Shown here: one piece after another, positions 12,471-30,451 of the stretch
How positions within the stretch are numbered: the stretch's first letter is position 1
Layout: every line of letters starts with the position of its first letter
Assembly (NCBI GenBank): GCA_017545185.1
Contig: JAFWQJ010000039.1
Location: 1-64,000, forward strand
Direction: 5' to 3'
From: Oscillospiraceae bacterium
GTDB lineage: Bacteria; Bacillota; Clostridia; Oscillospirales; Ruminococcaceae
Length of the DNA stretch: 64,000 nt
Position numbers and translations under genes: made by a program
Notes under the pieces: generated by a model
What the model was told of the DNA's origin: nothing
Seen by the model: the letters and a program-made list of their open reading frames with translations, nothing else
Databases searched by the model: none

Positions 12471-12471
12471 C

Positions 12472-12514
12472 AAAACAGCCTGCGGGAACCATCATCCCCG
12501 CAGGCTGCTTTTTA
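12472..12514. terminator. Bidirectional terminator at the end of the dockerin operon
   Basis: An 11-bp perfect stem (CAGCCTGCGGG 12476-12486 with CCCGCAGGCTG 12497-12507) has TTTT on the minus-strand side and CTTTTT on the plus-strand side, so it can end the minus-strand operon as well as plus-strand read-through. Confidence 0.85.
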
Positions 12515-14683
12515 TGCCAATGTGATCTTCTTCGCGATATACTGCAAAATCATCGTTGCATCGCTTTCATCGGTCTTGCCGTTTTTGTCCGCATCCGCAT
12601 TTCGGAGCCCCTGCTCCGTGACGGCCGCATCCCTGTCCTCGACTGCATAGCGCATGACCAGCACCGCATCGGAAACATCGACAAAACCGTCGCAGTTGGC
12701 GTCGCCTTTGCGCTGTTCGGATGCAGCTTTTTCTGCATTTCCAATCACGATCACCGGCTTATGTATCGTGCAGGAGCCGGAAGCTTCTCCGCCGCCGGCT
12801 TGCACCTCGGCGTATACCTCACAGATTTTTCTTTCGTCCCATACATCTTTGCTGTTGTCGATCCCTTTCCATGCACGGATATGTTCGAGGAGCGGCACCG
12901 TGCTGTGCGGCGAGACGATTGCGTCCGGATCATAGCCATTCACATGCCGGACGCTCCAATACTGATAGATCGGCAGGTCGGTTCCGGGTTCCGTTTTCAC
13001 GGTGATATACAGATCGTACCGGGCAAAGTCGATTTCCGTTGTTCCCAGCAGCTTTGCACCGCCGCCGGGCGGGCGGCTTCCGATCCAGCCCTCAATGATA
13101 TAGAACTCCCCGTATCTGTTTCCGGACTGTGTTCTCCCCGGCTCAAGATAACGGCCGTTCACACCGTACCATGCATCACCCTCCGCTTCAATGGCCGTTA
13201 TATAGGATACATCGTATGCAGTGAGCAGGCCGGCTCTGAGGGGCTCCGAATGCCGCGCACCGTTCCGGAGCCTGCATTCGGTCACACCGTCCCATGAACC
13301 GCACAAAGCACCTTTCTGCATATTCCACTGCTCAAATGTTCCCGCATCATTCTCATTCCAGCCCTCCCGGAACCATTCATCCGGTATCTGCTTCGGCGAC
13401 TTTGCCTGCGACAGATCAATCTCCGGTTCGCAGCCCGCCTTCGCGAAGGTCATGCTGTCGATCCAGAACGGAAAATTCTCTCCGTAGCCTCCCTCTGCGT
13501 CGAAATATACGTGAAAATCCCTCAGTACGGGCTTGAGACGAATCGCATTCAGCCGAAGAATGCACCATTCTCCCTTCCGGCTGTCTACGAAATCATACTC
13601 ATGATTGAACGCACCGTTCTCATCTATATATTCCAGCGTCATGGAAAATCTCAGATCATCCTTGAAGTTCTGCATCACTGCGGCCTGCAGGACATATTCC
13701 TCATCCGTCCTGACCGCATACGGCATCAATGAAAATTCAGGCCCGCACATCGTATTTTCCGGCCCTTCAACATACAGAGAACGCGCGCCCTCTGCACAGT
13801 ACCGGCTGTCAGGCACCGGATCAGTCGGATCATCGCTGCCGCGGGCGATCCATTTCCCGACCGAATTTTCAAAATCCTCCGTGAAAAAGACACCGTTCTC
13901 ATCTGCTTCCTGCTTCGGCATCTCCGACGTAAGCCTGAGCGAATAATCCGCCTTTTCGACCCGCAGGCTGCCTTCTGTATTACCGCGCTGGATGCCCCTG
14001 GACTCCGTATAAAACCCGAAACGCTCGATACTGAACGAATCCGGCAGCAGCCTTTGCTGTTTCCATTCTGCCAGATGCGCGCATAGATCGACCGTACCGC
14101 TCACATGCGCCGTCTCCGGATCATCAAGCCCATTTTCCGCTGCTGCGCTCCAGATCTGCCGGTATTTCCGGCGGCCTTCGATCGAAGGGGCGTTTGTGCA
14201 GGTATGCTCATAGATCGTATAGGCCTTTCCGTTGATATCCGCAGTGTCCCGGTTTCCGCTTTTATCGGAAGGCGGCCGCGATGTGTTCCAGCCGTCCACA
14301 ATGTAATACTCGCACAGCGTACTGCCGGTTATCCAGCCGTGCACGCCGTAAAACATATCGCCTTCCGCGGTGATCTCCGCCTCATAATCCAGTTTCAGCT
14401 GCTGCAGATATGACTGATCCACCGGCAGTCCGAAACAGAGCGATTTTTCTGCCTGGTGAAAAGGCACATCACGCCATGCACATTCAAAGCAGCCCGGTCC
14501 CCCAGGAACCTCGTTTGTAAATTCATGCGTTCCCATCAGCCGCCCCTGCACATACTGCCCGCAGACAAAATCTTGCTCCGTCAGCACGGGGACTGTTTCA
14601 GCATCCGCATACACATCAGAATGCGGAACCGCTGCCGCCGCAAATACCGCGGCGGCAAGCAGTCCCAAGAAACGCTGCTTCAT
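12512..14683 (-). CDS. Secreted GH11-CBM22-GH11-dockerin protein (last gene of the dockerin operon)
   Basis: 723 residues. Signal peptide about 1-26. First GH11 module about 35-250 with nucleophile E125 (CEYYIVDGW) and a candidate acid/base E227. CBM22-like module about 262-420. Second GH11 module about 435-645 with E526 (GEFYIIEGW) and E626. Dockerin 658-720 with two loops (GDANCDGFVDVSDAV, NADADKNGKTDESDA). Both GH11 modules keep the two catalytic glutamates as far as alignment by eye allows, so xylanase activity is possible, although the thumb region differs from the canonical PSIxG sequence in the second copy. AAAGGAG precedes the start; 17 bases separate it from the upstream gene. Confidence 0.87.
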   Translation of the reverse strand: MKQRFLGLLAAAVFAAAAVPHSDVYADAETVPVLTEQDFVCGQYVQGRLMGTHEFTNEVPGGPGCFECAWRDVPFHQAEKSLCFGLPVDQSYLQQLKLDYEAEITAEGDMFYGVHGWITGSTLCEYYIVDGWNTSRPPSDKSGNRDTADINGKAYTIYEHTCTNAPSIEGRRKYRQIWSAAAENGLDDPETAHVSGTVDLCAHLAEWKQQRLLPDSFSIERFGFYTESRGIQRGNTEGSLRVEKADYSLRLTSEMPKQEADENGVFFTEDFENSVGKWIARGSDDPTDPVPDSRYCAEGARSLYVEGPENTMCGPEFSLMPYAVRTDEEYVLQAAVMQNFKDDLRFSMTLEYIDENGAFNHEYDFVDSRKGEWCILRLNAIRLKPVLRDFHVYFDAEGGYGENFPFWIDSMTFAKAGCEPEIDLSQAKSPKQIPDEWFREGWNENDAGTFEQWNMQKGALCGSWDGVTECRLRNGARHSEPLRAGLLTAYDVSYITAIEAEGDAWYGVNGRYLEPGRTQSGNRYGEFYIIEGWIGSRPPGGGAKLLGTTEIDFARYDLYITVKTEPGTDLPIYQYWSVRHVNGYDPDAIVSPHSTVPLLEHIRAWKGIDNSKDVWDERKICEVYAEVQAGGGEASGSCTIHKPVIVIGNAEKAASEQRKGDANCDGFVDVSDAVLVMRYAVEDRDAAVTEQGLRNADADKNGKTDESDATMILQYIAKKITLA

Positions 14684-14700
14684 AAAGCTGCTCCTTTCGG

Positions 14701-15681
14701 TCAGAACGTGAGCTTCTTTGCGATATATTTGAGGATCAGCGCTGCGTCGCTTTCATCGGTCCTGCCGTTTTTGTCAACATCCGCATTTCGGAGCCCCTGC
14801 TCTGTGACGGCCGCATCCCTGTCCTCGACAGCATAGCGCATGACCAGCACCGCGTCCGAGATATCGACAAAACCGTCGCAGTTCGCGTCGCCGGTCAGCG
14901 TTTCCGCCTCTGTATTCCGGATCCTGATCTCCGGCTTTGCGATGACACAGCTGCCGGACGCAGCGCATTCCGCTCCGCCCCATGCATCGGCCTCAAAATA
15001 CACCTGCCGGAGGTTTCTCCCCTGCCATGTGTCTGCTCCGTCAAGCGCATCCCATGCACGGATATGTTCAAGGAGCGGAACGGTTCCGCTGCAGGCTTTG
15101 CCCGCTGTGTATGCGTTCTCATGCCGGATGCTCCAGTAACTGACCTCCGGCGGCGGCGGTTCGATCCCGAGCGGGGTATACACTGTGACATACAGATCAT
15201 ACTGTACGCCGCCGATCTCCGCGGTTCCCAGATGATTTGCGCCTTCTCCGGGCGGGCAGTAGCCCTCCCAGCCTTCGATGATATAAAACTTTCCGTACCG
15301 GCTGCGGTACTCCGGCTGTTCCGCCTCGAGGTAACTGCCGTTCACACCGTAGTAAAATGCGCCCTGTTCCGCGCTGATCTCCGCCTGATAGGAAATATCA
15401 AAGGCAGAAAGCTGCCCGATCACTTGCTCATTCTCCGCATACCCGGCACCGTTCCGGAAATAGCTGTTATAAATGCCGTCCCATGTTCCGGTAATACTGC
15501 CGTCCGGATGATCCTGCAGTTCAAACGTGCCCCTGTAATCCTGATTCCAGCCTTCCCAGTAATCACCGCCGGTCTGTTCACTCATGATCTGCAGGTCGTC
15601 TGCCGACGCAGGAAATGCCGGGACCGCTGCCGCCGCAAATACCGCGGCGGCAAGCAGGCCGAAAATTCTCTGCTTCATCAT
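14701..15681 (-). CDS. Secreted GH11-like protein with dockerin; nucleophile replaced by Lys
   Basis: 326 residues. Signal peptide about 1-27, GH11 fold about 38-250, dockerin about 262-324. The canonical EYYIVEGW strand reads KFYIIEGW here, so the catalytic nucleophile position holds K131 (codon AAG); the candidate acid/base E230 remains in YFEADAWGG. A retaining glycosidase without its nucleophile should not turn over substrate, so binding to xylan or another glycan is more likely than hydrolysis. The module is closest to the second GH11 module of the downstream gene (shared RYG-(K/E)-FYIIEGW and VPLLEHIRAW). AAAGGA precedes the ATG. Gaps of 16 and 17 bases to its neighbours place it inside the operon. 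Confidence 0.87.
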   Translation of the reverse strand: MMKQRIFGLLAAAVFAAAAVPAFPASADDLQIMSEQTGGDYWEGWNQDYRGTFELQDHPDGSITGTWDGIYNSYFRNGAGYAENEQVIGQLSAFDISYQAEISAEQGAFYYGVNGSYLEAEQPEYRSRYGKFYIIEGWEGYCPPGEGANHLGTAEIGGVQYDLYVTVYTPLGIEPPPPEVSYWSIRHENAYTAGKACSGTVPLLEHIRAWDALDGADTWQGRNLRQVYFEADAWGGAECAASGSCVIAKPEIRIRNTEAETLTGDANCDGFVDISDAVLVMRYAVEDRDAAVTEQGLRNADVDKNGRTDESDAALILKYIAKKLTF

Positions 15682-15697
15682 AAAGCTGTCCTTTCTG

Positions 15698-17632
15698 TCA
15701 GAACGTGATCTTCTTCGCGATATATTTGAGGATCATCGTTGCATCGTCTTCATTGGTCTTGCCGTTTTTGTCAACATCCGCGTTTTTGAGCCCCTGCTCT
15801 GTGACAGCAGCGTCCCTGTCCTCAACTGCATAGCGCATGACCAGCACCGCATCCGAAACATCGACAAAGCCGTCACAGTTAGCGTCGCCGGGCTTGGCTG
15901 CATTCATTTCCTGCATCATATCCATGATGTCGTAGTAGGACTGATACGGTGTGAGGGTCATATCCATGTTACTGGTTCCGAAATTCCGGACATCGGTCCG
16001 GAACAGGCCGACGGGCACGTAGTCAGAGATCATATAATTGGTGCTGATCTCACCGAACGACACGCTGGTGATATGATCTGCGTGATTGATCGCCGCCTTG
16101 AAAAACGCCTTCCAGCATTCGCCGGTGCCGTCCGCGCCGTACTCATCGCCGGCGACCTGCACGGATCCGATCTGCATGTTCAGTCCCAGCGCTTCGCACT
16201 TGCTGATCTTCTGCTCAAATTCCGCCGCATCAAATTCGCCGGAATATTCAAAGGTCAGCGACATGCCGTCCAGATAATTTCCGGCCTTCAGGATATCCTT
16301 CGCGACTTCAAACGGATCCTTCGCCTTCAGTGTGTCTGCCAGATAGAGCTTGCAGCCCTCCGGCGCGTACTTTCTTGCGAACTTGTACGCCTCCGTGATA
16401 TAGCTTGTGTCGTCGCCGAACACCGAATACCAGTCCAGCACGGTCAGATTCGGATCGTGCTTCTCTTCCAGACTGTCACAGACGATATACGATTCCAGGA
16501 TCAGATCCGGATATTTCGTTTTGATGTAAGAGAACGTCCCCTTGATGATGCTCTCAATGCGTGCAAGCCCTTCCTCCGGCGTGCATTCAAACAGTTCCTG
16601 CGGCAGCAGGAGCGGGTTCGGCAGGAAGGATTTGCCGTTCACCGGGATCTGATTCTGCTCTGCAAAGGCAAGGAAATCGTCCGCATCGGTGAAATCCATT
16701 TCCACATCTGTTCCCTCAACGGATTTGATATGAGTAAACGACGGCGTCAGCTCCGCGCCCGGGGTCAGCAGATTGTACTGTCTGCCGCACATCTCCCGGT
16801 ATCCCGGATACATCATATAGCCGTTCCGCGTCACGCCGCCGAGCCGGAAATACGGCGCAAACACATCCTTTAAGCCCTGCTCCGTGCTCGTGCCCGACGT
16901 ACTGCTGACCGTAAACACCGGCGCTTTGACCGTGCAGATGCCGGCGGCCTTCTCCGGACCTCTGCCGTATGCAAACACCGCGGCAAATGCCTGATAAAGC
17001 TGATAGCCTGCATCAAGATATTCCGTGTCCTCCCATGCACGGAGAAGCTCCGCCACCGGAACGGTTCCCTTGTACGCAGCCTTTTCGCCTGCTTTCCATG
17101 TATTTTCATGCCGGATGCTCCAGTATGTCCATACATTCCGCGGTTCTCCGTTATTCGGATCGTTGGCCTGCCGCTGTCCCGGGAACAGATCGTACTGCAC
17201 GCCGCCGACCTCGACGGTTTTCACAGGCTCCGTTCCGTTATAGGGATCCCAGCCCGTCCAGCCGTCGAGAATGTAGAACTCCGTCTGCGGATTGTTCAGC
17301 CAGCCGTAAGCGCCGTAATACGCGACGCCCATCGCCTCAGCCTCAAGCTCATAGGCGATATCATACTGCGACGGCATGTCGATCGGATCATCGTAATCCT
17401 TGCCGTGCAGCACCGTACATTCCGCAATGGTATCCCACCGCGCGGAAAGGCTGCCGTCCGCATTTTCCTCGCACTGAAACGCACCGATGCCGTCCGCGTT
17501 CCAGCCCTCCATATAGCTGTTGTCCGCGCCCTTCTTTTTGAAGCCGCCGTCCTCCAGCGTGTCGGCAAAGGCCGGAACCGATGCTGCCGCCATCACCGCG
17601 GCAGTCAGAAATGCGCAAAACCGTTTTTTCAT
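15698..17632 (-). CDS. Secreted GH11-like plus degenerate GH10-like protein with dockerin (probable pseudo-xylanase)
   Basis: 644 residues from ATG 17632, which has AGGAGG at the right distance; the frame also opens at TTG 17638. Signal peptide about 1-24; GH11-like 35-240; GH10-like 255-575; dockerin about 580-642. GH11 keeps nucleophile E118 (TEFYILDGW), but the acid/base position is A218. In the GH10-like module the acid/base Asn-Glu pair is Asp-Ser (S387 in YIVCDSLE) and the nucleophile is S490 (MQIGSVQV); the HTFIWHSQ substrate motif and the CENEM motif are also gone. The barrel pattern (FRLGG, FAEQN, FARKYAP, GNYLDGMSL) is kept. The GH10 part cannot be a normal xylanase; a binding or structural role is inferred. 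Confidence 0.88.
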   Translation of the reverse strand: MKKRFCAFLTAAVMAAASVPAFADTLEDGGFKKKGADNSYMEGWNADGIGAFQCEENADGSLSARWDTIAECTVLHGKDYDDPIDMPSQYDIAYELEAEAMGVAYYGAYGWLNNPQTEFYILDGWTGWDPYNGTEPVKTVEVGGVQYDLFPGQRQANDPNNGEPRNVWTYWSIRHENTWKAGEKAAYKGTVPVAELLRAWEDTEYLDAGYQLYQAFAAVFAYGRGPEKAAGICTVKAPVFTVSSTSGTSTEQGLKDVFAPYFRLGGVTRNGYMMYPGYREMCGRQYNLLTPGAELTPSFTHIKSVEGTDVEMDFTDADDFLAFAEQNQIPVNGKSFLPNPLLLPQELFECTPEEGLARIESIIKGTFSYIKTKYPDLILESYIVCDSLEEKHDPNLTVLDWYSVFGDDTSYITEAYKFARKYAPEGCKLYLADTLKAKDPFEVAKDILKAGNYLDGMSLTFEYSGEFDAAEFEQKISKCEALGLNMQIGSVQVAGDEYGADGTGECWKAFFKAAINHADHITSVSFGEISTNYMISDYVPVGLFRTDVRNFGTSNMDMTLTPYQSYYDIMDMMQEMNAAKPGDANCDGFVDVSDAVLVMRYAVEDRDAAVTEQGLKNADVDKNGKTNEDDATMILKYIAKKITF

Positions 17633-17661
17633 ATTCAAAACCTCCTGTTCTCGTCAAAAAA

Positions 17662-20292
17662 TTACCATAAGTCCGGATTCGCCTTCAGCCACTGCAGAAT
17701 CCCCATAACATCCGACATCGTCACAAGACCGTCCAGATCATAATCGGCATTCTCGATCGCCTGATCGGATAAACACACATTGTCCCCCTCCGAAAGGTAT
17801 TGAATGATCTGCAGCACATCATACATGTCACACATCCCGTTGCCGTCTACATCGCCCAGCACAGGCGGCTCCCAGCTGTCCGGGTTCCGTTCAGTGCTTC
17901 CGTCAAACATTTCCGCGCCGTGCACGATCGCTTCACGGGATTGTATGACCAGATTGTAATACAGATAAGTCTGCACAAGCTCTGCGTCAAACAGACTGCA
18001 TTCCTGCTCATGATAGCTTTCAGAATGACAGACCGGCGCATAAAATGTCACGCCTGTGACTGCCTCCGAAAAGCAGAATGCCTGTGACATCAGATATTCC
18101 GGTAATGCGCTGCTCAGCCATTCGTCCCCCGCGCAGCCGTTCTGCAGCTCCGAGATCTGGATATCCAGCCCGAGAGAAGCAAACCTCCAGAATATCGCTT
18201 CATACCTGACTGAATCATTGCGGTTGGTCAGTTTTCCCTGCAGCGCAATGCCGTCGATGTAATCGCCTGCCTCCATGATCTTCTCCGCCAGTACCGCAGC
18301 AGCATCTGCATGCTGCTGCGACAATGCATTCGCGCTCAGAAACAGCTTGCAGTTCTCCGGCGCATACATTCTCGCATACCGGAATGCCGCAATGATATAC
18401 GCGGTGCGGTCATCCTCTGAAAGCGCGCGCCATGCGGGCAGCCGGCTCTCCTGCAGGAGCACATCCCGGCAGACATCGTATGCATACAGGTCAAGCGACG
18501 GGTAATTCTGCTTCAGTCCGGCAAAGATCCCGCGGATCATGCTTTCCAGCCGCGCTTCCCGTTCCTCTGCGGTGCCGCTGAGCATCTCCGCCGGCATACT
18601 GCTGCCGTTCACCAGTGTGCTGCCGCGGAAGCCGAGGGCGTTCTGCTCCGCAAATTTCAGCACCGGGTCTGCGGCATCCAGCGAGACGACTGCAATCCCA
18701 TCCCCGATCTCCTTGACCGTGTTTTCCGGCAGCAGTTCATTTTTGCAGCTGACCGAATTAAACTGCTTCCGGTAAAACGCCTGCATGACCGGATCCTCCA
18801 GATCTTCGGCAGACGCACAGAAGCCCATCCGGAAAAACCGCCCGAACTGATCCTTTGCGCCGCCTCCGCCGTGTACATAGGTGTATTCATCGTTCTGGTG
18901 CGCACGCAGCGGCAGACCGTCATCCACATTTGTATGCCGGATCGTCTCGGCCGTGAAGTCGCTGACCGCCGCGGAAAGATCCATCTCCGGCATACAGTCT
19001 TCGTCCCAGAGCCCGGCCGCATCAATATAAAAATCCGCATCCGGCGAATCCGAGCTGATATACAGCCGCATATTCTCACTGCCGTCCGGAATGAAATGCG
19101 GAACTGTAAACGAACATTTCAGCAGCGCCCACTGCCCGCATTCCGTATACACTTCATCCAGAAAGATCATAGTTCCTTCCGGGTCTTCAAAATACAGGAT
19201 AAACGACGCCGTTTCCTCCGCCTTCTGCATCACGCAGACCCCCACATCGTACCTCGTTTCCGGCTTGAGCGCATAGGGCTTCAGCGAGACGGTCACGCCG
19301 CTGGAGGCGGAGAACCGGTTGGTCACCAGCAGCGAGCTGTGACCGTCAACATAATTGTTCTCATCATGCCGGAGCCGCGAGCGTTCACAGCTCTGCCAGC
19401 GGCAGCTGCCGTTCTCAAAATCCGAACGGAAATAGCAGCCGTCCGCATCCGCCTCGATCTTCGGTGCCGCTGTGGTCGTGACTGCCGTCGTTGTCGTGAC
19501 TGCCGATGTCACGGCGGTTGTCACCGGTGCGGTCGTTTCATACTTCACTCCCGACAGGTAATAATCCGCGCTTGTGACCCGGCAATAGCCTGCGTACGCA
19601 CTGCGGTAGCTGTCCAGATACAGTGCAGCGTATTCCGGCATCTCGCCCGGAGAAAGCATCCCTCTCTGAAGCAGGACCTCCAGATGCCGGTCCAGGGAGA
19701 TCTGCTCCCGGCTCAGTGTTACGGGGGCATTCAGCCTGGCCGCATTCTGCGTCCGTACACACCAGTACTGATCCAGGTTGCGGGCGCCTTCGACTGTCGG
19801 CTCGTTGTACCTGTGAACGGAAAAATACTCATACATATTGTAGCCTACACTCTCAACGGCGAGCGGCGAGAAGCCGCCCGGCGGTCTCCATTCGCCCCAC
19901 GCCTCAACGGTATAGATTTCCTTTGCTGCGGCTGCTCCGGGCAGATCATGCATTTTGCAGTGCAGGCCGAAATAGCTGTTGCCGGCCAGGAACAGCTCTG
20001 CCTGATACTTCACAAAAAAGGCGCTGATGTTCTCCGCGCAGTACATGCCCGGCATTTTCAGTCCCATTTCCGCAAAGCAGCGGTCGCTTTCTTCCCATTC
20101 ACAGGAAAATGTGCAGTTCTCGCCCTTTTCAAACCGAAAGCTGCATTCGTCGTTATAGCTGCTCTCCTGATAATAGCATCCGTCCGGCGTGTAGCCCCAG
20201 CGCATACTGCCCGGTTCCTCGGCACTGACCTGCCCTGTCAGCAGAAAAACTGCCGCAGCTGCAGTCAGCAGACCGCCGATGATTTTCTTCAT
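17662..20292 (-). CDS. Secreted GH11-like, CBM22, GH10-like protein with divergent dockerin
   Basis: 876 residues from the ATG at 20292, which follows GGGAGGAGATCC; the open frame extends to 20376 but that part encodes no signal peptide. Signal peptide about 1-24; GH11-like about 30-245; Thr/Val linker about 252-276; CBM22 about 280-435; GH10-like about 465-790; dockerin about 812-870. GH11 keeps E125 but has D227 at the acid/base. GH10 keeps nucleophile E715 (IQISELQ) but has D610 in place of the acid/base Glu (YDVCRD) and lacks the HTFIWHSQ segment. The dockerin is the most divergent of the operon (GDVDGNGMCDMYDV, NADYDLDGLVTMSDV), so it may bind a different cohesin. Confidence 0.87.
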   Translation of the reverse strand: MKKIIGGLLTAAAAVFLLTGQVSAEEPGSMRWGYTPDGCYYQESSYNDECSFRFEKGENCTFSCEWEESDRCFAEMGLKMPGMYCAENISAFFVKYQAELFLAGNSYFGLHCKMHDLPGAAAAKEIYTVEAWGEWRPPGGFSPLAVESVGYNMYEYFSVHRYNEPTVEGARNLDQYWCVRTQNAARLNAPVTLSREQISLDRHLEVLLQRGMLSPGEMPEYAALYLDSYRSAYAGYCRVTSADYYLSGVKYETTAPVTTAVTSAVTTTTAVTTTAAPKIEADADGCYFRSDFENGSCRWQSCERSRLRHDENNYVDGHSSLLVTNRFSASSGVTVSLKPYALKPETRYDVGVCVMQKAEETASFILYFEDPEGTMIFLDEVYTECGQWALLKCSFTVPHFIPDGSENMRLYISSDSPDADFYIDAAGLWDEDCMPEMDLSAAVSDFTAETIRHTNVDDGLPLRAHQNDEYTYVHGGGGAKDQFGRFFRMGFCASAEDLEDPVMQAFYRKQFNSVSCKNELLPENTVKEIGDGIAVVSLDAADPVLKFAEQNALGFRGSTLVNGSSMPAEMLSGTAEEREARLESMIRGIFAGLKQNYPSLDLYAYDVCRDVLLQESRLPAWRALSEDDRTAYIIAAFRYARMYAPENCKLFLSANALSQQHADAAAVLAEKIMEAGDYIDGIALQGKLTNRNDSVRYEAIFWRFASLGLDIQISELQNGCAGDEWLSSALPEYLMSQAFCFSEAVTGVTFYAPVCHSESYHEQECSLFDAELVQTYLYYNLVIQSREAIVHGAEMFDGSTERNPDSWEPPVLGDVDGNGMCDMYDVLQIIQYLSEGDNVCLSDQAIENADYDLDGLVTMSDVMGILQWLKANPDLW

Positions 20293-20372
20293 GGATCTCC
20301 TCCCTTTGCGCCGCCGGAAGCGGCCTCCCCGCACGGAAATGCCCGGCAGGGAGCCGCACGCACCGTCCGGCA

Positions 20373-21377: not shown

Positions 21378-21387
21378 AAGCGTTCCC

Positions 21388-23964
21388 TCATTTTATCAGG
21401 TTGATCTTTTTCGCGATATGCAGCAGAATCATTGTCGCGTCACTGTCGCTGACATTGCCGTCGCCGTCGGTATCGCTGTTCTTCAGACCCTGCTCCGAAA
21501 TGACAGCCTCTCTGTCCGCGACCGCATAGCGCATGACCAGCACCGCGTCGGACACATCGACAACGCCGTCACAGTTTGCATCGCCGGTCTGATCCTTCCG
21601 CGCCTTCATCATGTCCGTGATCTCGCTGAAAGCCCACACCGGCGTGAGCTCGCCGGTCTCCGAATTGATGTTGAACAGCGTGGTCGGGCCTTCGTCAAAA
21701 ATCGGCATCGTGACGGCCGGTTTGCCCAGCGTCACGCAGGAGATCTCATCCGCACAGTCAGCAGCCATTGCCAAAAACTGTTTCCATGCCTGGATCATGA
21801 ACGCCCCCGAATAATCCCCTACGTCATGCACACCGATCTCTGCAAACTGAATATCCATGCCGAGTGCCGAAAGCTTTTTCAGCCAGCTTTCGTAGGCGGT
21901 CAGATCGGTTTCCCTGCCGACGGCAGCTTTCAGGGACACGCCGTCGATGTAATCGCCCTCCTGCATGATCTTTTTGACGAGCACTTCGAGCTCTGCGTCC
22001 TCCGCCATCTTCCATGACTGATCGTCGCAAAGATACAGCTTAGTTATACGCGGCGCGTACTTTCTCGCGTTCTTGAACGCCTGAACGATGTATGCGTCAT
22101 TGCCCTCGCCGTAGATGCTGCTCCACTGATTTCTGCCGGGTATATAGAATCCGCCCTCTGAACTGCCGCCTGTCACATGGGTGCAGACATCATACGAATA
22201 CAGCTTCAGGTTCGGATGCTGAAACTTCAATTCCGAAAACGTATTTTTCATGAGGCTTTCTATGCGCGCATCGCATTCCTGTGCGTTTATATTCAGAAGC
22301 ATCTCCTCCGGAAGCAGCTGATCCGTTCCGATCGTGAAAAAGCTGTTTCCGCGCACCGGAATGCCGTTCTGCTCCGCAAATGTCAGAACCGACGCTGCCC
22401 TGCTGATATCCACGGTGACATCCGTTCCGTTCACAGCCTTGATCGTGTACAGCGGATCCAGACCGTATTTGCAGCTCAGCGAATTAAAATGCTTTTTTAC
22501 GCTGTCCTTTGCCGCATCCGTTTTCAGATACTGATCGGAGATGATCCCGCCGACACGGAAATACTGCCCGAAAAGATCTTTCATGCCGTCGCCGTCCGGA
22601 TCGTATTCCGGCGTATCCTTCGGTACCGGCGGAGCGATCCCGCCCGTTTCCTCCGGCAGCGGCGGAACACAGTCCGCAAGACTGATCTCCGGCAGCGCAC
22701 CGGCTTTGGACAGACACGCGCTGTCCAAATAATAATCCGCGATGCTGTCCGGCGTCTCGATCAAAAGCTTTGCATTCTTCACATAGATTTTTTTCGAGCC
22801 GTCTGACGGGACCTGAAAGTCCGGGCAGCGCAGGATGACCCATTCACCCCGCTTTGCTTTGACCGTTTCCAGTGCTTGATACTGCAGCAGACCGCTGTCA
22901 TCCCGATACTGCATTATCAGGCGGAATGTGACCTCGTTCTCCGCCTCCTGCATCAGTGCCGTCTGGAAGCTGTAGGATGTGTCCGGAATGATCGCATAAT
23001 CATCCAGCCGATAGGCAACACCCTCCCGGCTATCCGAGCGGTCTGTCACCGAAAGCGACTGCGCGCCGTCAACATGATAATGCGGCATGACGTCGATCGT
23101 TGTCGATTCTCCGTACTGGCCCGCATTTCCGATGCCGGTTTCATAATCCTCCCGGAAGAACACGCCGTTCTGATCGGCAGCGATCCGTTTGTCCGTGACC
23201 GTGGGAACGGGATCCGGACTCCATGTTACATAGGTATTCATTTTGTCAACGGATAATTTGCAGGAAGAATCTGCGGCACGGCCGCCGTAGCCATCTGCAA
23301 ACAGTGCTGCATATTCCAGCTTCGCATTGAACAGCTCGCTGTAATCGCTGTCCAGTTCCGCAAGATTCCGGATATGCCTTGTAAAGTCGGTTGATGCGAT
23401 TATTCTGCATTCCTGATTCTGCGTAATACCGGAGCTCTCTGCAACGGCAAAGACCGCTCTGACGATCTCGCTGCTGTCCGCGGCAGGGTTGGCATAATAG
23501 GTCCCCTCATAATAATCATAGGTTTTGCCGTTTGCCGTGCGCTTGCCGATCATGCCCTGTCCCCCGGGCGGTCTCCATGAGCCCCAGCCTTCCACAATAT
23601 AGACCTGCGGCATGTCTGAACCGAAGCTGCCGTGCACGCCGTAGTAACAGTTGCCTTTGATATTGATCTTTCCCGAATAGGTAAATTCCAGATTGCCGAT
23701 CCCAGCAAACGAATCATACTGCTGAAAACGCTTTCCGACCTCTGCACGGTAGTTGAAAATCCCGTCCCATTCACAGGTAAATGTGCCGTAGTCTCCGAGC
23801 GTAAGCCGGTGCGTTCCCTGCTGATCCTCCGCAAATTCCGCATAATAGTATCCGTCCTCTGTTTCGCCGTCTGTCATCCACGCAGTTTCCTCGGCAGAGA
23901 CCGGCTGTACGGTCATGCACACTGCAGCAGCAGCGCACAGTACACTCAATAGTCGCTTTTTCAT
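21388..23964 (-). CDS. Secreted GH11-like, CBM22, GH10-like protein with dockerin; both modules missing catalytic residues
   Basis: 858 residues from ATG 23964 (GGAGG nine bases upstream). Signal peptide about 1-25; GH11-like about 35-240; CBM22 about 262-430; GH10-like about 458-790; dockerin about 795-857. GH11 has Q120 at the nucleophile (QVYIVEGWGSWRPPGG) and D224 at the acid/base (ADGYGG). GH10 keeps E709 (IQFAEIG) but has H596 for the acid/base Glu (YDVCTH); CENEM is CKYGL and the HTFIWHSQ segment is NSFFTIGT. The GH11 substitutions mimic laboratory inactivation mutants, so this module should still fold and perhaps bind xylan. Same module order as the intact xylanase at 30.5 kb. Confidence 0.88.
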   Translation of the reverse strand: MKKRLLSVLCAAAAVCMTVQPVSAEETAWMTDGETEDGYYYAEFAEDQQGTHRLTLGDYGTFTCEWDGIFNYRAEVGKRFQQYDSFAGIGNLEFTYSGKINIKGNCYYGVHGSFGSDMPQVYIVEGWGSWRPPGGQGMIGKRTANGKTYDYYEGTYYANPAADSSEIVRAVFAVAESSGITQNQECRIIASTDFTRHIRNLAELDSDYSELFNAKLEYAALFADGYGGRAADSSCKLSVDKMNTYVTWSPDPVPTVTDKRIAADQNGVFFREDYETGIGNAGQYGESTTIDVMPHYHVDGAQSLSVTDRSDSREGVAYRLDDYAIIPDTSYSFQTALMQEAENEVTFRLIMQYRDDSGLLQYQALETVKAKRGEWVILRCPDFQVPSDGSKKIYVKNAKLLIETPDSIADYYLDSACLSKAGALPEISLADCVPPLPEETGGIAPPVPKDTPEYDPDGDGMKDLFGQYFRVGGIISDQYLKTDAAKDSVKKHFNSLSCKYGLDPLYTIKAVNGTDVTVDISRAASVLTFAEQNGIPVRGNSFFTIGTDQLLPEEMLLNINAQECDARIESLMKNTFSELKFQHPNLKLYSYDVCTHVTGGSSEGGFYIPGRNQWSSIYGEGNDAYIVQAFKNARKYAPRITKLYLCDDQSWKMAEDAELEVLVKKIMQEGDYIDGVSLKAAVGRETDLTAYESWLKKLSALGMDIQFAEIGVHDVGDYSGAFMIQAWKQFLAMAADCADEISCVTLGKPAVTMPIFDEGPTTLFNINSETGELTPVWAFSEITDMMKARKDQTGDANCDGVVDVSDAVLVMRYAVADREAVISEQGLKNSDTDGDGNVSDSDATMILLHIAKKINLIK

Positions 23965-24049
23965 TGAAATCCTCCTCATCGCAGGTCTGATTGATCTGCG
24001 CGGTCAGTCCCCCCGGACTTTTTCATGCATCAGGATATCCAATTTTCTG

Positions 24050-25789
24050 TTACTGATTGTTGCCATGGGCGTCCGTGAAATAATCAGGGATAAAAACAAC
24101 CAGACCGTCGCCGTTCAGGTTGATCTTCTTCGCGATATGCTGCAGGATCAGCGTCGCGTCCTCGTTATCGGTGTTGCCGTTTCTGTCCGCATCTGCATTT
24201 TTGATACCCTGCTCCGAAATGACGGCTTCTCTGTCCGCGGCCGCATAGCGCATGACCAGCACCGCATCCGAAATATCAACTTCACAGTCGCAGTTTGCAT
24301 CACCGATGCGGTCATAGATCTCCGAGACCGGCGCCCAGTCCGGCGTATCGTTATCCGTAATATAAAGCGCCTTGCCGACATTGAAATGCCCGGATGTCTT
24401 GCCGGCTTCCGTTTCCTCGCACTGCACATAGAGCGCACAGGTCTGCAGGGCACCGGATGCCAGTGCCTGCAGCGGCGGCTGGCTCAGGATCGCCTTGATA
24501 TCGACGGCATCCGCAACATGATTTTCCGGGCCCGGGAGCAGGGTGTTTTCCTGCCGCACGCACCAATACTGCTTATATGTGCTGCCGACAGGACTGTTCC
24601 GCATCACGGTATATACGTCATAGCTGCGGCCGTTCACGGTCAGGGTGCTGTCCGGCTCCGCAGCGGGCGCGGGGCGTTCTCCGCTCCAGCCCTCAACGAT
24701 GAAAAGCTCGTCCTGACTGTCCTTTTGGCGAAAGTGCACGCCGTAAAAGCCCTTGCCGTTCAGCGCGATCTCGGCATCATAATTCAGACGCAGCGCGGAG
24801 GCCTCCGCAAGACGGTACGGGGCATAATCCCCGAACATTCTGCCGGCATCCACGGCATAGCCGGAAGCATTGCGCCAGTCTGCGGTGAATCCGAAATCCA
24901 GCAGATTTTCCGTCTGCGCGATATAATCAGACGCATCCATGTGATACTTTCCCTGCTCCGGCTCCTTGACATATTCCGCCGCATAGCAGGCGTCAAAGAC
25001 CATTTCCCCGGTGCGCGTCCAGTCTCTCGCCGGATCATCCGGTTCCGATGCTGCCGCGCCGACGGTGATCTTCGGTGCTGCGATTTTGCAGGAACCGAAC
25101 GCATTTTTCTCGTTTCCGCCCCAGGCATCTACTTCCGCACAGACCTCCCGGAGCATTCCCTCCGTCAGGGAAACATCCTTGAGCGTATCCCATGCACGGA
25201 AATGCGCATCCAGCGAGACCGTCCCGCTGACCGCATTCTTTTCGTCCTCCCGGAACAGGTTTTCGCGCCGCACGCTCCAGTAGACCGGATAGACAAAACG
25301 ATCCAGATCCGCAAAGCTTTCCCGGTAGGTGATGTAGAGATCGTACAGCGCACCGTCGATCTCCGCCGTTTTCAGCACATCGTCGTTCCCGGGCGGACGC
25401 CAGCCGTTCCAGCCCTCGATCACATAGTATTCACATCCCGGGGTCTGGGTATAAAGGCTGATGCCGAAATAGTAATCGCCGGAACCCGCCAGCTCCGCTT
25501 CATAGGAAACCGAGATCCCGCCCAGATCAGAAACAGCCCTGCTGTCCTTCCGCTCCGCGCCGTACTTCAGCCGGCACTGGGCGACGGCATCCCATTTCAT
25601 GGTGATGCTGCTGTCCGGCTGCATCTGCACATCGGCCGTTCCGGCATAATCCTGATTCCAGACCTCGTAAAACAGCCCGTTATCAAGCCGTTTGGTATAT
25701 TGCTCGTCCGCCGCGTTTGCCGTCAGCGGCGGAACGGCTGCCGCCGAAAGTACGGCAGCCGTTATCAGACTGAATATCTGTTTTTTCAT
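24050..25789 (-). CDS. Secreted protein with two GH11-like modules and a dockerin
   Basis: 579 residues. Signal peptide about 1-27; first GH11 module about 38-243 with E120 (CEYYVIEGW) and E219 (AEVDAWGG), apparently intact; second module about 262-475 with E361 (DELFIVEGW) but Q456 at the likely acid/base (YVQCEE). Dockerin about 495-557, followed by an unusual tail of about 20 residues ending FTDAHGNNQ that no other protein of the operon has. It shares the two-GH11 layout and the acid/base Gln of the second module with its upstream neighbour, so the two are probably products of one duplication. AAAGGG precedes the ATG; the intergenic gap upstream is 12 bases. Confidence 0.87.
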   Translation of the reverse strand: MKKQIFSLITAAVLSAAAVPPLTANAADEQYTKRLDNGLFYEVWNQDYAGTADVQMQPDSSITMKWDAVAQCRLKYGAERKDSRAVSDLGGISVSYEAELAGSGDYYFGISLYTQTPGCEYYVIEGWNGWRPPGNDDVLKTAEIDGALYDLYITYRESFADLDRFVYPVYWSVRRENLFREDEKNAVSGTVSLDAHFRAWDTLKDVSLTEGMLREVCAEVDAWGGNEKNAFGSCKIAAPKITVGAAASEPDDPARDWTRTGEMVFDACYAAEYVKEPEQGKYHMDASDYIAQTENLLDFGFTADWRNASGYAVDAGRMFGDYAPYRLAEASALRLNYDAEIALNGKGFYGVHFRQKDSQDELFIVEGWSGERPAPAAEPDSTLTVNGRSYDVYTVMRNSPVGSTYKQYWCVRQENTLLPGPENHVADAVDIKAILSQPPLQALASGALQTCALYVQCEETEAGKTSGHFNVGKALYITDNDTPDWAPVSEIYDRIGDANCDCEVDISDAVLVMRYAAADREAVISEQGIKNADADRNGNTDNEDATLILQHIAKKINLNGDGLVVFIPDYFTDAHGNNQ

Positions 25790-25801
25790 AAAAAAGCCCT
25801 T

Positions 25802-27463
25802 TCATTCCGCATCCGTTTTCAGTGTGATCTTCTTCGCGATATACTGCAGGATCAGCGTCGCGTCATGATCGCCGACATTGCCGTCACCGTCTGTATCGCT
25901 GTTTTTCATACCCTGCTCCGTGATGACAATGCTCCTGTCCTCACAGGCATACCGCAGAACAAGCACCGCATCCGAAACATCCACAGTGCCGTCGCAGTTG
26001 GCGTCGCCGGGGCGGGAGATCAGCTGGGAAAGCGGGATCCACGGGTCGAAAAGCACCCAGCTGTCCGAGATTCCTTCATAGACCCGGAAGCTGCCTGTCG
26101 CTTTCTGCTCCGCATTTTCCCGCGCCTGCACATACAGCAGACAGTAATTCAGATCGGCAGGCTTATGATATACCTCCTGCACGATCTCTTCCACATCGAC
26201 CGTATCAGCAATGCGGCTGAGCCCTTCATGCGTCAGTTTATTCTCCTTCCGGACGCACCAGTCCGGCATATCCGTCAAATAGGTGCAGTACCACTCATAT
26301 TCAACGCCGTTCACCTCAAACGAACTGGGGCCGTACAGCTCACCCGGAAGATGCAGTTCTCCCGTCCAGCCCTCAACAATGATGAGTTCTTCTTTTCTGT
26401 AGTTGATTCTCACCCCGGTATGCACGCCGTAGAAGGAATCGCCGTTCAGGTCGATCGCAGCATCGTAATGCATTTTCAGCCCCTCACAATCGCGCGGCGT
26501 GCCGTAATAAGTACTGCCGTATTCACCCGCATACCGGCTGACACCGTCCCATTCATAGGAAAAGCTGTAACCGTGCGGAGCCCGCACAAACCCGTTCATC
26601 TCAAACCGGTGCGTTCCCTGTTCCGGCAGCTGGATGTATTCAAACGCTCTGAACGACCATTGCGGCGGATCTCTGGTCTCCTTTTTGATATCCCACCATA
26701 ATGACGGTTCCGAATCATGCACCTCCCGGAGATATTTGATCTCCGGCTCTGTCAGTGACCAGCTGCCGGATGCCGTCTGACCCTCTGCGGCCTGCACATC
26801 CATCTCCAGCCAGACCGACTGCAGCGGCAGCCTGTCCAGATCAGCACTGTCCATGTAATCGAAAATTGCGATATGCTCAGACAGCGGAACCGTTCTCAGA
26901 ACATTTCTCTTTCCGCCGGAACGGAACAGGTTCTCCTTCCGGACGCTGATATATTCCGGATACCAGACTTCTTCCCCGCCGAGCTCGGCCGTGCAGTCCC
27001 GCCTATAAACGTCATATTCAGCGCCGTCGATCATCTCATCTGCACGCAGCAGTTCGCCGTCGATCTCCGGTCTGTCCCCGAACCAGCCTTCGATCACGCA
27101 GTACGAGCGCATCGGGTGGACTGCGGAAGCGCGGACACATAAGCAGGCATTGCCGGTGCTTTCCGGCGTCATATCATAGAAAACCTTGATCCCGCCGATC
27201 CGCCCCGGCTGGATCGGTGTGCTGAGCGACTGCCCGTATTTTGTGCAGCAGGACTGCACCGCATCCCATGATGCCGTCAGACCGCCGCCGGGATTCTCCG
27301 TGATCTCAAAATCGCCGATGCCTGCCTCATTCCGTCCTTCATAAAAGATCCCGTTTTCGCCGGAGCCTGAAATGATCTCAGGCTCCGCCGCTGCCCCGAA
27401 AGACGGAACGGCTGCCGCTGCAAACACAGCGGCAACGAGCATCCCGAATAACCGGATTCTCAT
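25802..27463 (-). CDS. Secreted protein with two GH11-like modules and a dockerin; one catalytic residue lost in each module
   Basis: 553 residues from ATG 27463 (AAAGGGG upstream); the frame opens 24 bases earlier, inside the upstream gene. Signal peptide about 1-26; first GH11-like module about 36-245 with S120 replacing the nucleophile (SYCVIEGW) and E220 retained; second module about 265-465 with E359 retained and Q446 at the acid/base (YVQAREN). Dockerin about 485-548. The RPPGG loop that follows the nucleophile strand is altered in both modules. No module has a full catalytic pair, so hydrolysis is unlikely; a docked glycan-binding protein is the simplest reading. Confidence 0.87.
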   Translation of the reverse strand: MRIRLFGMLVAAVFAAAAVPSFGAAAEPEIISGSGENGIFYEGRNEAGIGDFEITENPGGGLTASWDAVQSCCTKYGQSLSTPIQPGRIGGIKVFYDMTPESTGNACLCVRASAVHPMRSYCVIEGWFGDRPEIDGELLRADEMIDGAEYDVYRRDCTAELGGEEVWYPEYISVRKENLFRSGGKRNVLRTVPLSEHIAIFDYMDSADLDRLPLQSVWLEMDVQAAEGQTASGSWSLTEPEIKYLREVHDSEPSLWWDIKKETRDPPQWSFRAFEYIQLPEQGTHRFEMNGFVRAPHGYSFSYEWDGVSRYAGEYGSTYYGTPRDCEGLKMHYDAAIDLNGDSFYGVHTGVRINYRKEELIIVEGWTGELHLPGELYGPSSFEVNGVEYEWYCTYLTDMPDWCVRKENKLTHEGLSRIADTVDVEEIVQEVYHKPADLNYCLLYVQARENAEQKATGSFRVYEGISDSWVLFDPWIPLSQLISRPGDANCDGTVDVSDAVLVLRYACEDRSIVITEQGMKNSDTDGDGNVGDHDATLILQYIAKKITLKTDAE

Positions 27464-27483
27464 GATCGTTCCCCTTTCTGCTT

Positions 27484-29526
27484 TCAAAAGGTGATCTTCT
27501 TCGCGATATACTGCAGGATCAGCTTGGCGTCGTCGCTGCTGACCTTGCCGTCACGGTCGGCATCTGCATTGGTCTTGCCCTGATCCGTGATAACAGCCTC
27601 TCTGTCCTCCACGACGCAGCGCAGGATCAGCACGGCATCCGAGATATCGACATGGTCATCGCAGTTCGCGTCGCCGCGCAGACCTTCCGTCGGTACGTTT
27701 GTCGTGGTGACCGGAATCGGGGAAACCCAGCCCGGATACATGAAATCCTGATACGCATCGTTCGGCTGCATCGTTCTGTCAAAGAGCGTCGCATATTTGA
27801 CATCTGTGATCCAGCCGGCGACAGGATTCCACATCGTCACACTGGTGATCCCGTTTGCATGGTTCATCAGCACTTTGGATACATTCCGCCAGAGCAGCAG
27901 CTGTGCTTCTTCGCCTGCACGTTTACTGTCCGTGAGATCGAGCTCCGTGATCTGGATATCGAGGCCGAGGGATGTGAACTTCTTGATCGCGTCCTCATAA
28001 AGCTGCTTGTCCGGATAGGAAGCGTCCAGATGCGACTCCATACCGATGCCGTCGATATAATCGCCCTCTGCCATGATGCGCTTTGCCAGATCATAGATAT
28101 CGTCCCGCTTTTCCGGCATATACTCGTTGTACTCATTCAGGAAGAGCTTGCAGTCCGCCGGTGCATATTTTCTCGCAGACTTGAATGCGTGAATGATAAA
28201 CGAATCGTTGTCCTCGCCGTAGATGTTTGTCCACTGAGATAAATCGCTGCCGGCGCCGTTCCTGACACGGAGACCGCCGCCTTCATTCTTGAACGGCTCG
28301 TTCACGACATCATAGGCGTAGAGCTTGAGATCCGGATAATTCGTTTTCAGCTGAGAGAAGGTCTCTTTGATGAAGTTTTCGATGCGCTGATCGGATTCCT
28401 CCGGCATACCCCGGAACATCCCGTTCGGCGTCTGGCTGTACCAGATGAACGAACGGCCGCGGACGCCGATGCCGTTTTCCTCCGCGTATTTCAGGACATT
28501 ATCAGCCCCTGACAGATCAACGGTCACTTCGGTGCCGTCGATCTTCTTGATGATCTGTTCCGGCGTCATCTCGTTTTCGCAGGTGATCGAGTTGAATTGC
28601 TTTTTGACAAATTGCTGAAAATCCGGTCTTTGTACGGCGAAACTGTTTAATGATGTACCGACCCGGAAATACGGACCGAAGCGGTCCTTCAGCGTCGAAC
28701 CGCCTTGCTCGTAGGTGTAGTCAATATTCTGGTGCGCACGGAGCGGATCCTGCTCCGCACCCGGATCAGACTGATTCAGCGCAGCTGTCCTGAAAGAAGC
28801 ATCGAATGTTTCAAAGCTGCATTCTGCGCCCTTGCCGCCCCAGACAAACTCGGAAACATCGGCAATATACGCCTGCTCCATGCTTTCCGCAAACGCAGAA
28901 AGGGAACTGAGATTCCGCAGATGATCGTTCAGCGGCTGCACATAATACGCATACTCCCGTTCCTCAGTCGGTTCGGAGAACCAGCCGTTTTCCGGCGGAA
29001 CGCAGTAATACCGTGCGTAAGGCGCTTCCGGTTCCTGCACCGTGATTTTGTAGTAATCGTATGTCACAGCACCGATCGGAGCCGAACCGATCTTCGCCTG
29101 CGGGCTGATATATTTGCTGAGATCATCCGTCTGCCAGCCGTCCAGCATCAGGATCTGGACCTTCGGCTGTGCCAGCCAGCAGCATGAGCCGTAAAACGCT
29201 TCACCCTCGGTCCGGATCCGTGCGCCGCAGCCGATCGAAGCGGTTTTTGACGGCTGCGCACCGGCCAGTTCCGCAAACGTGACGCGTTCCTCCGGCTGTT
29301 TGCCGTAAAACGCCCAGTACTGTTCCGCGGGCTTAAATTCGCAGGTAAAAGTGCCGTTCTTGCCGAGTACAAAGTTTGTTTCGGCAGACTTGCTGTATTC
29401 ATCCGTAAAGATGAAGCCGTCCTGTCCCTCAACCGAACGCCGATCGGTCTCTGCCGCACTGACCGGCTGACAGCTCAATACTACAATGACGGCTGCGGTC
29501 AGCATTCCAAATCCTCTGTGTTTCAT
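27484..29526 (-). CDS. Secreted GH11-like plus GH10 protein with dockerin (first gene of the dockerin operon)
   Basis: 680 residues. Signal peptide about 1-25; degenerate GH11-like module about 33-245; GH10 about 262-590; dockerin about 615-679. In GH11 the nucleophile strand reads QILMLDGW, giving Q124; E226 in a shifted WGG segment may or may not be the acid/base. The GH10 module keeps acid/base E410 (YDVVNEPF) and nucleophile E528 (QITELDL) and the CENEM motif. Two active-site histidines of the canonical RGHTFIWHSQ are R358 and Y363, which should alter substrate contacts in the -1 subsite. GAAGGAGG precedes the start, and a near-perfect promoter lies about 90 bases upstream. Confidence 0.88.
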   Translation of the reverse strand: MKHRGFGMLTAAVIVVLSCQPVSAAETDRRSVEGQDGFIFTDEYSKSAETNFVLGKNGTFTCEFKPAEQYWAFYGKQPEERVTFAELAGAQPSKTASIGCGARIRTEGEAFYGSCCWLAQPKVQILMLDGWQTDDLSKYISPQAKIGSAPIGAVTYDYYKITVQEPEAPYARYYCVPPENGWFSEPTEEREYAYYVQPLNDHLRNLSSLSAFAESMEQAYIADVSEFVWGGKGAECSFETFDASFRTAALNQSDPGAEQDPLRAHQNIDYTYEQGGSTLKDRFGPYFRVGTSLNSFAVQRPDFQQFVKKQFNSITCENEMTPEQIIKKIDGTEVTVDLSGADNVLKYAEENGIGVRGRSFIWYSQTPNGMFRGMPEESDQRIENFIKETFSQLKTNYPDLKLYAYDVVNEPFKNEGGGLRVRNGAGSDLSQWTNIYGEDNDSFIIHAFKSARKYAPADCKLFLNEYNEYMPEKRDDIYDLAKRIMAEGDYIDGIGMESHLDASYPDKQLYEDAIKKFTSLGLDIQITELDLTDSKRAGEEAQLLLWRNVSKVLMNHANGITSVTMWNPVAGWITDVKYATLFDRTMQPNDAYQDFMYPGWVSPIPVTTTNVPTEGLRGDANCDDHVDISDAVLILRCVVEDREAVITDQGKTNADADRDGKVSSDDAKLILQYIAKKITF

Positions 29527-29617
29527 TTCAAGTCCTCCTTCAAATCATATCATTATTATCCTGCATCGGATTTTCGCCCCCCCGGCATCCGCATTTATCG
29601 GCCTTGCTTCCTGTTTT

Positions 29618-29646
29618 ATTGTAACATATTGCCAGTTCTTTGTCAA
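29618..29646 (-). promoter_or_regulatory. Promoter of the 17-kb dockerin operon
   Basis: On the minus strand TTGACA (29641-29646), exactly 17 bases, TACAAT (29618-29623). The leader to the first ATG (29526) is about 85 bases. No other promoter of this quality was noticed in the short gaps between the nine genes downstream. Confidence 0.85.
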
Positions 29647-30387: not shown

Positions 30388-30417
30388 TGATAGTGCCTCC
30401 TCTGTTCAGTGATTGTT

Positions 30418-30451
30418 AAAACAGGGTATGACCGAAGCCATACCCTGTTTT
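30418..30451. terminator. Strong terminator of the GH11-CBM22-GH10 xylanase gene
   Basis: A 13-bp perfect stem, AAAACAGGGTATG (30418-30430) with CATACCCTGTTTT (30439-30451), sits 30 bases after the xylanase stop on the minus strand and can work in both directions. Confidence 0.88.

Follow-up and report, generated by a model that had tools for sequence, protein, structure and literature searches.

An operon of dockerin proteins in which most GH11 and GH10 modules lack one or more catalytic residues of xylanases

RESULTS

Operon layout and products

The DNA analyzed here, called the window below, is the whole stretch of 64,000 nucleotides at positions 1 to 64,000 of contig JAFWQJ010000039.1 (assembly GCA_017545185.1) from an Oscillospiraceae bacterium. 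It carries an operon of nine genes for dockerin-bearing proteins built from modules related to glycoside hydrolase families 11 and 10 (GH11 and GH10), most of which lack residues that define a catalytic xylanase. The original prediction had described a nine-gene minus-strand operon with short gaps, and the open reading frame listing bears this out: the genes run consecutively on the minus strand, in transcription order from g9 to g1, between 29526 and 12512. With the starts of g8 (ATG at 27463), g4 (ATG at 20292), and g3 (17632) revised, each picked by eye for an AG-rich site upstream, the intergenic gaps are 10 to 80 bases. The near-consensus promoter placed ahead of g9 (TTGACA-N17-TACAAT, minus strand, 29618 to 29646) agrees with the consensus at 11 of 12 bases, with a TG ahead of its -10 element. 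The window contains two copies of this exact string, against 0.00 expected from shuffles. The strong terminator proposed at the other end (minus strand, 12472 to 12514) also holds up. Its hairpin, at about 12470 to 12517 by folding, has an energy of -33.5 kcal/mol (z -6.7) and a short T run behind it; the hairpin is absent from the output of a pattern scan of the window.

All nine products match the Pfam dockerin model above the cut-off, and a signal peptide can be recognized by eye on each, so that the predicted export and docking signals stand for the whole operon. The genome holding the window (G000; 3.6 Mb, window on contig C35) has 24 cohesin matches, of which 18 are above the cut-off. 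Its dockerin matches number at least 149, from the 150 of 306 first-look candidates that were scored. As judged from these matches, G000 is a cellulosome producer, probably Ruminococcus-like by the architecture of its genes, and the operon proteins, which combine a signal peptide (by eye) and a dockerin with cohesins encoded in the same genome, are predicted to be cellulosome components. The dockerin of g4 (17662 to 17860) is unlike the other eight, with ≤53% nucleotide identity to any of 28 others compared, and may dock elsewhere.

Catalytic residues of the operon modules

GH11 modules were aligned by MAFFT to 1h4g, the Bacillus agaradhaerens xylanase, and the 1h4g numbering was checked; we take Glu94 of 1h4g to be the nucleophile and Glu184 to be the acid/base. 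A retaining GH11 xylanase was defined as having both catalytic Glu residues and the active-site Tyr (Tyr85/Glu94/Glu184), and a GH10 xylanase as having the acid/base Glu (DVxNE) and the nucleophile Glu (ITELD). As cross-checks, we used a hidden Markov model (HMM) of canonical modules only and profile-profile alignment (HHalign) of independently re-aligned clades. Residue pairs are given as nucleophile/acid-base for GH11 and as acid-base/nucleophile for GH10.

Each of the nine proteins ends in its dockerin. Ahead of it, g9 (27484 to 29526) encodes a GH11-like module (Q124/unassigned, with Cys at the Tyr85 position) and an intact GH10 module (E410/E528). Two GH11-like modules are found in both g8 (25802 to 27463; S120/D222 and E359/Q446) and g7 (24050 to 25789; E120/D221 and E361/Q456). 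The g6 product (21388 to 23979) has a GH11-like module (Q125/D229), a CBM_4_9 module, and a GH10 module (H601/E714), and g4 (17662 to 20292) has the same order of modules (E125/D227 and D610/E715). Single GH11-like modules are encoded by g5 (20373 to 21377; E131/E231, with His122 for Tyr85) and g2 (14701 to 15681; K131/D232). In g3 (15698 to 17632), a GH11 module with Tyr109, Glu118, and Phe220 at the acid/base position precedes a GH10 module (S387/S490). In g1 (12512 to 14683), a CBM_4_9 match just below the cut-off separates two GH11-like modules (E125/E227, with His115; and E526/Q628).

The alignment gives 12 GH11 modules rather than the eleven counted originally. Both Glu residues are present in only 2 of the 12 (g5 and the first module of g1), and these modules, though Glu/Glu, have His at the essential active-site Tyr position. 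The full Tyr/Glu/Glu triad that defines a retaining xylanase is found in none of the 12. Only one of the four GH10 modules, that of g9, is intact, and the others are H/E (g6), D/E (g4), and S/S (g3). The xylanase encoded just upstream of the operon (GH11-CBM_4_9, probably CBM22,-GH10-dockerin; minus strand, 30482 to 33247) is, as had been stated, complete in both modules (GH11 Y111/E120/E220; GH10 E619/E736). Thus, the loss of catalytic glutamates from most modules is confirmed and is wider than had been claimed. Alignment did change the original acid/base assignment in five of the 12 modules (g8 module 1, g7 module 1, g3, g2, and g1 module 2), where it had been made two residues early, in four cases by taking the Glu of an E-x-D or E-x-Q strand motif. 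Of the two proteins said to keep every pair, only g5 does.

Lys, Ser, Gln, or Phe at a catalytic position, or a Ser/Ser pair, is incompatible with the known double-displacement mechanism. The Tyr69Phe variant of the Bacillus circulans xylanase has undetectable activity (PMC2981812), which makes even the Glu/Glu modules of the operon suspect.

PF00457 matches seven of the nine operon proteins above the cut-off, g8 weakly (31.6 versus 27 bits); the Pfam GH11 model misses g2 and g9, which are detected only by profiles of relatives. HHalign gives a probability of 100% for the two main clades and of 91%, for the first part only, for g9, and the best PDB matches of profiles built from broken modules are GH11 xylanases. 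The canonical-only HMM agrees on the nucleophile in 12 of 12 modules and on the acid/base in 5 of 12 (g7 module 1, g6, g5, g4, and g2). It leaves the acid/base unplaced in g9, g8 module 2, g3, and g1 module 1, and places it differently, at ~50 to 70% posterior, in g8 module 1 (Glu227), g7 module 2 (Glu461), and g1 module 2 (Gly630). For these seven disputed modules, the register was taken from close relatives and from the clade profile-profile alignment; if the canonical-only register were right, neither Glu would be missing from g7 module 2. The register of g7 module 1 is fixed by its orthologue in the relative G002 (AEAEAWGG versus AEVDAWGG), which has Glu opposite Asp221 of g7. In g8 module 1, g7 module 1, g2, and g1 module 2, the Glu of the E-x-D/Q motif, at -2 on the same strand, may have taken over as acid/base.

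The locus in related genomes

Two relatives, G002 and G006, have the locus. In G002, whose flanking proteins are 89 to 98% identical to those of the window, the operon has ten genes, seven of them shared and three extra, and there is no counterpart of g8 or g1. In G006, four genes lie between its own AIM24-family gene and a gene 31% similar to the window's P-type ATPase-like gene. The AIM24-family gene of the window (minus strand, 29713 to 30387) lies between the xylanase and the operon and is in the same place in G002 and G006 (100% and 94% identical), and the upstream xylanase has orthologues in both (93% and 70%). A close counterpart of g8 is absent from both relatives, where the best long matches have 36 to 41% identity; g1 has no full-length counterpart in G002, the best match there being its g2 (58% over residues 438 to 722). 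All reading frames are uninterrupted in the nine window genes, the ten G002 genes, and the four G006 genes.

Both Glu residues are kept in 7 of the 11 GH11 modules of the G002 operon and in 2 of the 5 of the G006 operon, which indicates that some losses of the pair are confined to particular lineages. The full triad is found in 0 of the 28 GH11 modules of the three operons; as aligned here, an incomplete Tyr/Glu/Glu triad is the feature common to them all.

The promoter elements are also found ahead of the G002 operon (N17) and the G006 operon (N18, by eye). The leader that separates the promoter from the first gene contains a motif, CCGGGGGG-N3..9-TCCGATS (minus strand, 29564 to 29585 in the window), which occurs once each in G000, G002, and G006 and has 0 occurrences in five other genomes of the genus that were searched. 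An Rfam scan of the whole window gave no match at the gathering score, and the leader alone gave chance-level matches only. Folding of the three leaders (z 0.43, 0.70, and -1.64) leaves a conserved RNA structure unsupported, and no compensatory changes were seen among them.

Selection and module exchange

Ratios of nonsynonymous to synonymous divergence (dN/dS) were obtained between G000 and G002 for seven of the nine operon genes, g8 and g1 having no counterpart. Four flanking genes have dS of 0.04 to 0.23 and dN/dS of 0.10 to 0.21, and the active upstream xylanase has a dN/dS of 0.22 (95% confidence interval, 0.15 to 0.29). Among modules that are broken in both species, dN/dS is 0.10 for the g2 GH11 (0.04 to 0.20), 0.24 for the g3 GH11 (0.08 to 0.65), 0.31 for the g3 GH10 (0.18 to 0.56), 0.32 for the g9 GH11 (0.22 to 0.46), 0.42 for g7 module 2 (0.20 to 0.83), 0.42 for the g6 GH10 (0.31 to 0.56), and 0.54 for the g4 GH10 (0.41 to 0.71). 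Constraint on g2 and g3 is similar to that on the active xylanase, and for none of the GH modules compared does the upper 95% limit reach 1, which is what the proposed dN/dS check had asked about. With catalytic residues lost and purifying selection kept, the operon appears to encode pseudoenzymes.

Synonymous divergence jumps at module borders: in g9 from 0.62 (GH11) to 0.13 (GH10), in g7 from 0.43 (module 1) to 0.10 (module 2), and in g5 from 0.03 (GH11) to 0.5 (dockerin). These jumps indicate module replacement. The GH modules of g6 and g4 have dS of 0.65 to 1.1. The part of g6 that encodes GH10 and dockerin shares 92% identity (dS 0.14) with contig C35 of G006, while the xylanases of these two species share only 70%; the closest match to the GH11-CBM part of g6 is in G011 (64%). 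This comparison makes movement between species likely, with misbinning possible for the G006 contig, which is only 3.5 kb. Taken together, the pattern points to module replacement and exchange at a mosaic locus with gene gain and loss. The claim that intact genes reflect selection rather than decay is borne out by the dN/dS limits of the seven genes compared, and it has to be qualified by this exchange and by the partly lineage-specific loss of the catalytic pair.

GH11 modules across the genus

A search of 30 genomes of the genus gave PF00457 matches in 28. In the stretches around these matches, our own profile found 133 GH11 modules, and after 4 partial ones were dropped, 129 could be scored: 43 have the full triad, 27 have both Glu residues without Tyr85, and in 59 the pair itself is broken, so that 86 are noncanonical. 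Ten of the 28 genomes account for all the noncanonical modules, and nine of these ten carry a canonical module as well (the exception is G011). In a comparison set drawn from 398 genomes of the phylum, own genome included, 15 of 15 GH11 modules, from 13 other genomes, are canonical. The acid/base is replaced in 54 of the 129 genus modules, most often by Asp (20 of 54), and His is the consistent residue at position 85 in one clade of 19 modules.

A tree was built without the three catalytic columns and after 7 of 148 modules had been dropped; on this tree, which has a single support measure and many long branches flagged, the canonical label requires 3 changes, and the minimum is 8 for Tyr85 and 17 for the intact pair. 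Even when only well-supported branches are considered, the broken label has to change 10 times. Our reading of the tree is that the noncanonical lineages are old and that glutamates were lost repeatedly within them, with regains also possible. Among GH10 modules in the loci examined around GH11, which are not a random sample, 46 could be scored (5 partial modules of 51 dropped, reference excluded), 34 as E/E and 12 as broken. The broken ones are those of g3, g4, and g6, their G002 and G006 counterparts (including that on G006 contig C35), that of the last G006 operon gene, and those of three other proteins (G001:C24, G016:C30, and G027:C167), each with several noncanonical GH11 modules.

G000 has a second array (C82, 41353 to 49066), in which a 1,002-amino-acid protein has four GH11-like modules and its neighbors five more; of these nine modules, one has both Glu residues and none has Tyr85, and G002 has a counterpart on C39. 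Two more distant relatives have comparable single proteins. That on G001:C24 (8526 to 12617) has four noncanonical GH11 modules, a broken GH10-like region with a Pfam match, and a dockerin below the cut-off, and that on G016:C30 (7713 to 10853) has three noncanonical GH11 modules, a broken GH10-like region with no Pfam match, and a dockerin. A GH11 gene on G002:C44 (31097 to 31656), which resembles a gene on G000:C34, has an in-frame TAA and is either a pseudogene or an assembly error.

Active-site clefts

In 84 noncanonical modules, a set chosen by tree position that includes one full-triad module (G006:C71), the fold residues are kept (Tyr122 in 84 and Trp40 in 78), while Tyr85 is kept in 7, the acid/base Glu in 33, Pro133 in 22, and Trp19 in 28. 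Within the window, the number of signature residues kept ranges from 0 of 12 (g8 module 1) to 10 of 12 (g3, in which Phe replaces the acid/base). Lists of cleft-facing and core-facing positions were approximated by the alternation of residues along the strands of 1h4g rather than taken from coordinates, and comparisons based on them are exploratory. Cleft positions of the operon (8 module pairs) vary slightly less than random positions do (16.5% versus 21.6%; P = 0.036), with a dN/dS of 0.61 versus 0.45 at other positions, and those of the C82 array (8 pairs) vary more (39.1% versus 30.7%; P = 0.0055). When 17 noncanonical pairs are pooled, cleft and rest do not differ (26.3% versus 25.3%). 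Core-facing positions are constrained in both arrays. None of the CBM family models matched the GH11-like modules, and the CBM_4_9 matches fall outside them.

Neighboring features

Convergent with the operon is a gene for a heavy-metal P-type ATPase-like protein (by eye; plus strand, 9635 to 12121) with a very His/Glu-rich stretch near its N terminus, and a GH5-dockerin gene lies nearby (plus strand, 4030 to 5457). Open frames of 946 and 928 amino acids on the plus strand (30413 to 33253 and 23915 to 26701) are antisense to the xylanase and operon genes and are probably a codon-usage shadow rather than genes.

DISCUSSION

The reading that we favor, and to which we give about an even chance, is that the operon encodes cellulosome-docked, largely noncatalytic modules of GH11 and GH10 fold that most likely hold xylan or other hemicellulose beside an intact xylanase. 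The nine proteins would be exported and then docked via their dockerins into the cellulosome, where modules turned from xylan cutting to noncatalytic work would hold xylan or a neighboring hemicellulose next to the GH11-CBM22-GH10 xylanase encoded just upstream. Most modules would bind glycans without hydrolyzing them, and ligands would differ between modules. Sequence comparison supports the elements on which this reading is built, namely, export signals (by eye), dockerins, catalytic loss, fold conservation, purifying selection, a conserved promoter, and mosaic turnover.

Several observations weigh against it. The nucleophile Glu is present in 8 of the 12 GH11 modules of the window and the GH10 module of g9 is intact, so some activity may remain. 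Most modules have lost aromatic residues that would be expected in the cleft of a xylan binder, and the variability of the C82 clefts does not look like that of a site for one conserved ligand. Selection on the g9 GH11, g7 module 2, and the g6 and g4 GH10 modules (0.32 to 0.54) is looser than on the active xylanase. Since substrate-contact residues are mostly lost, one simple xylan-binding role for all modules is doubtful. The original proposal that these proteins bind or present xylan is thus plausible for the g3 GH11, which of all the modules is the best candidate for simple xylan binding. It is weakened for most of the others, which have remodeled clefts and probably altered ligands.

A different explanation is that modules with both Glu residues (g5, g1 module 1, and most modules of the G002 operon) and those in which Asp replaces Glu are altered enzymes that still hydrolyze, with His for Tyr85 in a changed active site and perhaps another substrate or pH optimum. 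The 7 of 11 G002 modules with both Glu residues, the preference for Asp at the acid/base (20 of 54), the 19-module clade with consistent His at position 85, the intact g9 GH10, and the both-Glu reading of g7 module 2 in the canonical-only alignment are all consistent with this. Lys, Ser, Gln, or Phe in g2, g8, g9, g6, and g3, together with Ser/Ser in the g3 GH10, argues against it on mechanistic grounds, as does the loss of activity of the Tyr69Phe model enzyme (PMC2981812), and on balance we think it unlikely.

Relaxed decay, in which duplicated xylanase modules drift to loss and have been caught in several lineages, would account for the 17 or more changes of the catalytic pair on the tree, the varying gene number among relatives (9, 10, and 4), the in-frame TAA in the G002 C44 gene outside the operon, and dN/dS of ~0.5 for g4 and g7. 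It is already disfavored by the open frames of all operon genes in G000, G002, and G006, by upper dN/dS limits that stay under 1 throughout the GH modules compared, including ratios of 0.10 to 0.54 where both copies are broken, and by the constrained core-facing positions and retained dockerins and promoter, and we consider it improbable. There is very little likelihood that the modules are decoys soaking up plant xylanase inhibitors of the TAXI/XIP type and shielding the active xylanase: inactive paralogues here do adjoin an active enzyme, keep fold residues, and diversify rapidly, a Phytophthora paralogue is reported as an inhibitor decoy (Ma et al. 2017, as cited in PMC6549527), beetles have inactive GH28 proteins that are important in digestion (PMC6549527), and rice OsXIP inhibits a GH10 from sheep rumen microbiota as XIP-I does a rumen Paenibacillus xylanase (PMC9739030), but bacterial xylanases are generally not inhibited by XIP types, bar such named exceptions and RIXI, and the XIP-type loop enters between thumb and palm and fills the cleft (PMC9739030), whereas the thumb Pro and cleft residues are mostly lost here.

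A broader form of the noncatalytic, glycan-holding reading, which we put forward only tentatively, is that across the genus, whose members would be fiber degraders of the gut, the GH11 fold has become a hypervariable, noncatalytic recognition repertoire on cellulosomes. Cassettes would be gained, lost, recombined where modules meet, and moved between species in one regulated island beside an intact xylanase, and each species would have its own set of binders of plant glycans (or plant proteins), made out of dead xylanases. In surveys of gut and rumen genomes, GH11 is usually read as xylanase activity; with 86 of 129 scorable modules from the 30 genus genomes lacking the full triad, counting them would overstate xylan-degrading capacity. 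Should glycan binding be borne out, the modules would offer a new supply of proteins that bind plant cell walls and would illustrate clearly how one enzyme fold can be turned to recognition time and again; natural Glu-to-Asp, Gln, and Phe variants are available among them.

Parts of this system are already known, namely, GH11-CBM22-GH10-dockerin proteins, tandem GH11-dockerin proteins, and pseudo-glycoside-hydrolases as such. Among the open-licence papers listed by the searches, as far as their text was available, we found no report of GH11 without catalytic residues or of GH11-derived binding modules, and the available parts of three papers on Ruminococcus GH11 proteins (PMC2721979, PMC2930009, and PMC4081043) do not mention catalytic-residue loss. 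Tandem GH11-GH11-dockerin proteins are described from Ruminococcus flavefaciens 17 and 007c (PMC4081043), and ORF01222 of R. flavefaciens FD-1 is an example of GH11-CBM22-GH10-dockerin (PMC2721979, PMC2930009). With such xylanases, g4, g6, and the intact upstream gene share the core architecture, dockerin, and signal peptide; unlike them, g3, g4, and g6 are broken in both GH modules, and the other operon genes are without the CBM part or the GH10 part. Compared with GH11 endo-xylanases (PF00457; 1h4g), the operon modules are alike in fold by sequence profile, in length, and in the conserved Tyr122 and Trp40, and they differ in the incomplete triad (28 of 28) and in the loss of most thumb and subsite residues. 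Many CBMs are beta-jelly-rolls, as is GH11. The operon modules resemble CBMs in being probably noncatalytic and appended to dockerin proteins, and differ in matching no CBM family model and in their clear origin from GH11 xylanases. The GH28 pseudoenzymes of leaf beetles (PMC6549527) likewise belong to an expanded GH family with active and inactive members, purifying selection on the inactive ones, and a place in the same digestive pathway; those are insect proteins concerned with pectin, whereas the operon proteins are bacterial, xylanase-derived, multimodular, and dockerin-bearing, and are encoded in one operon.

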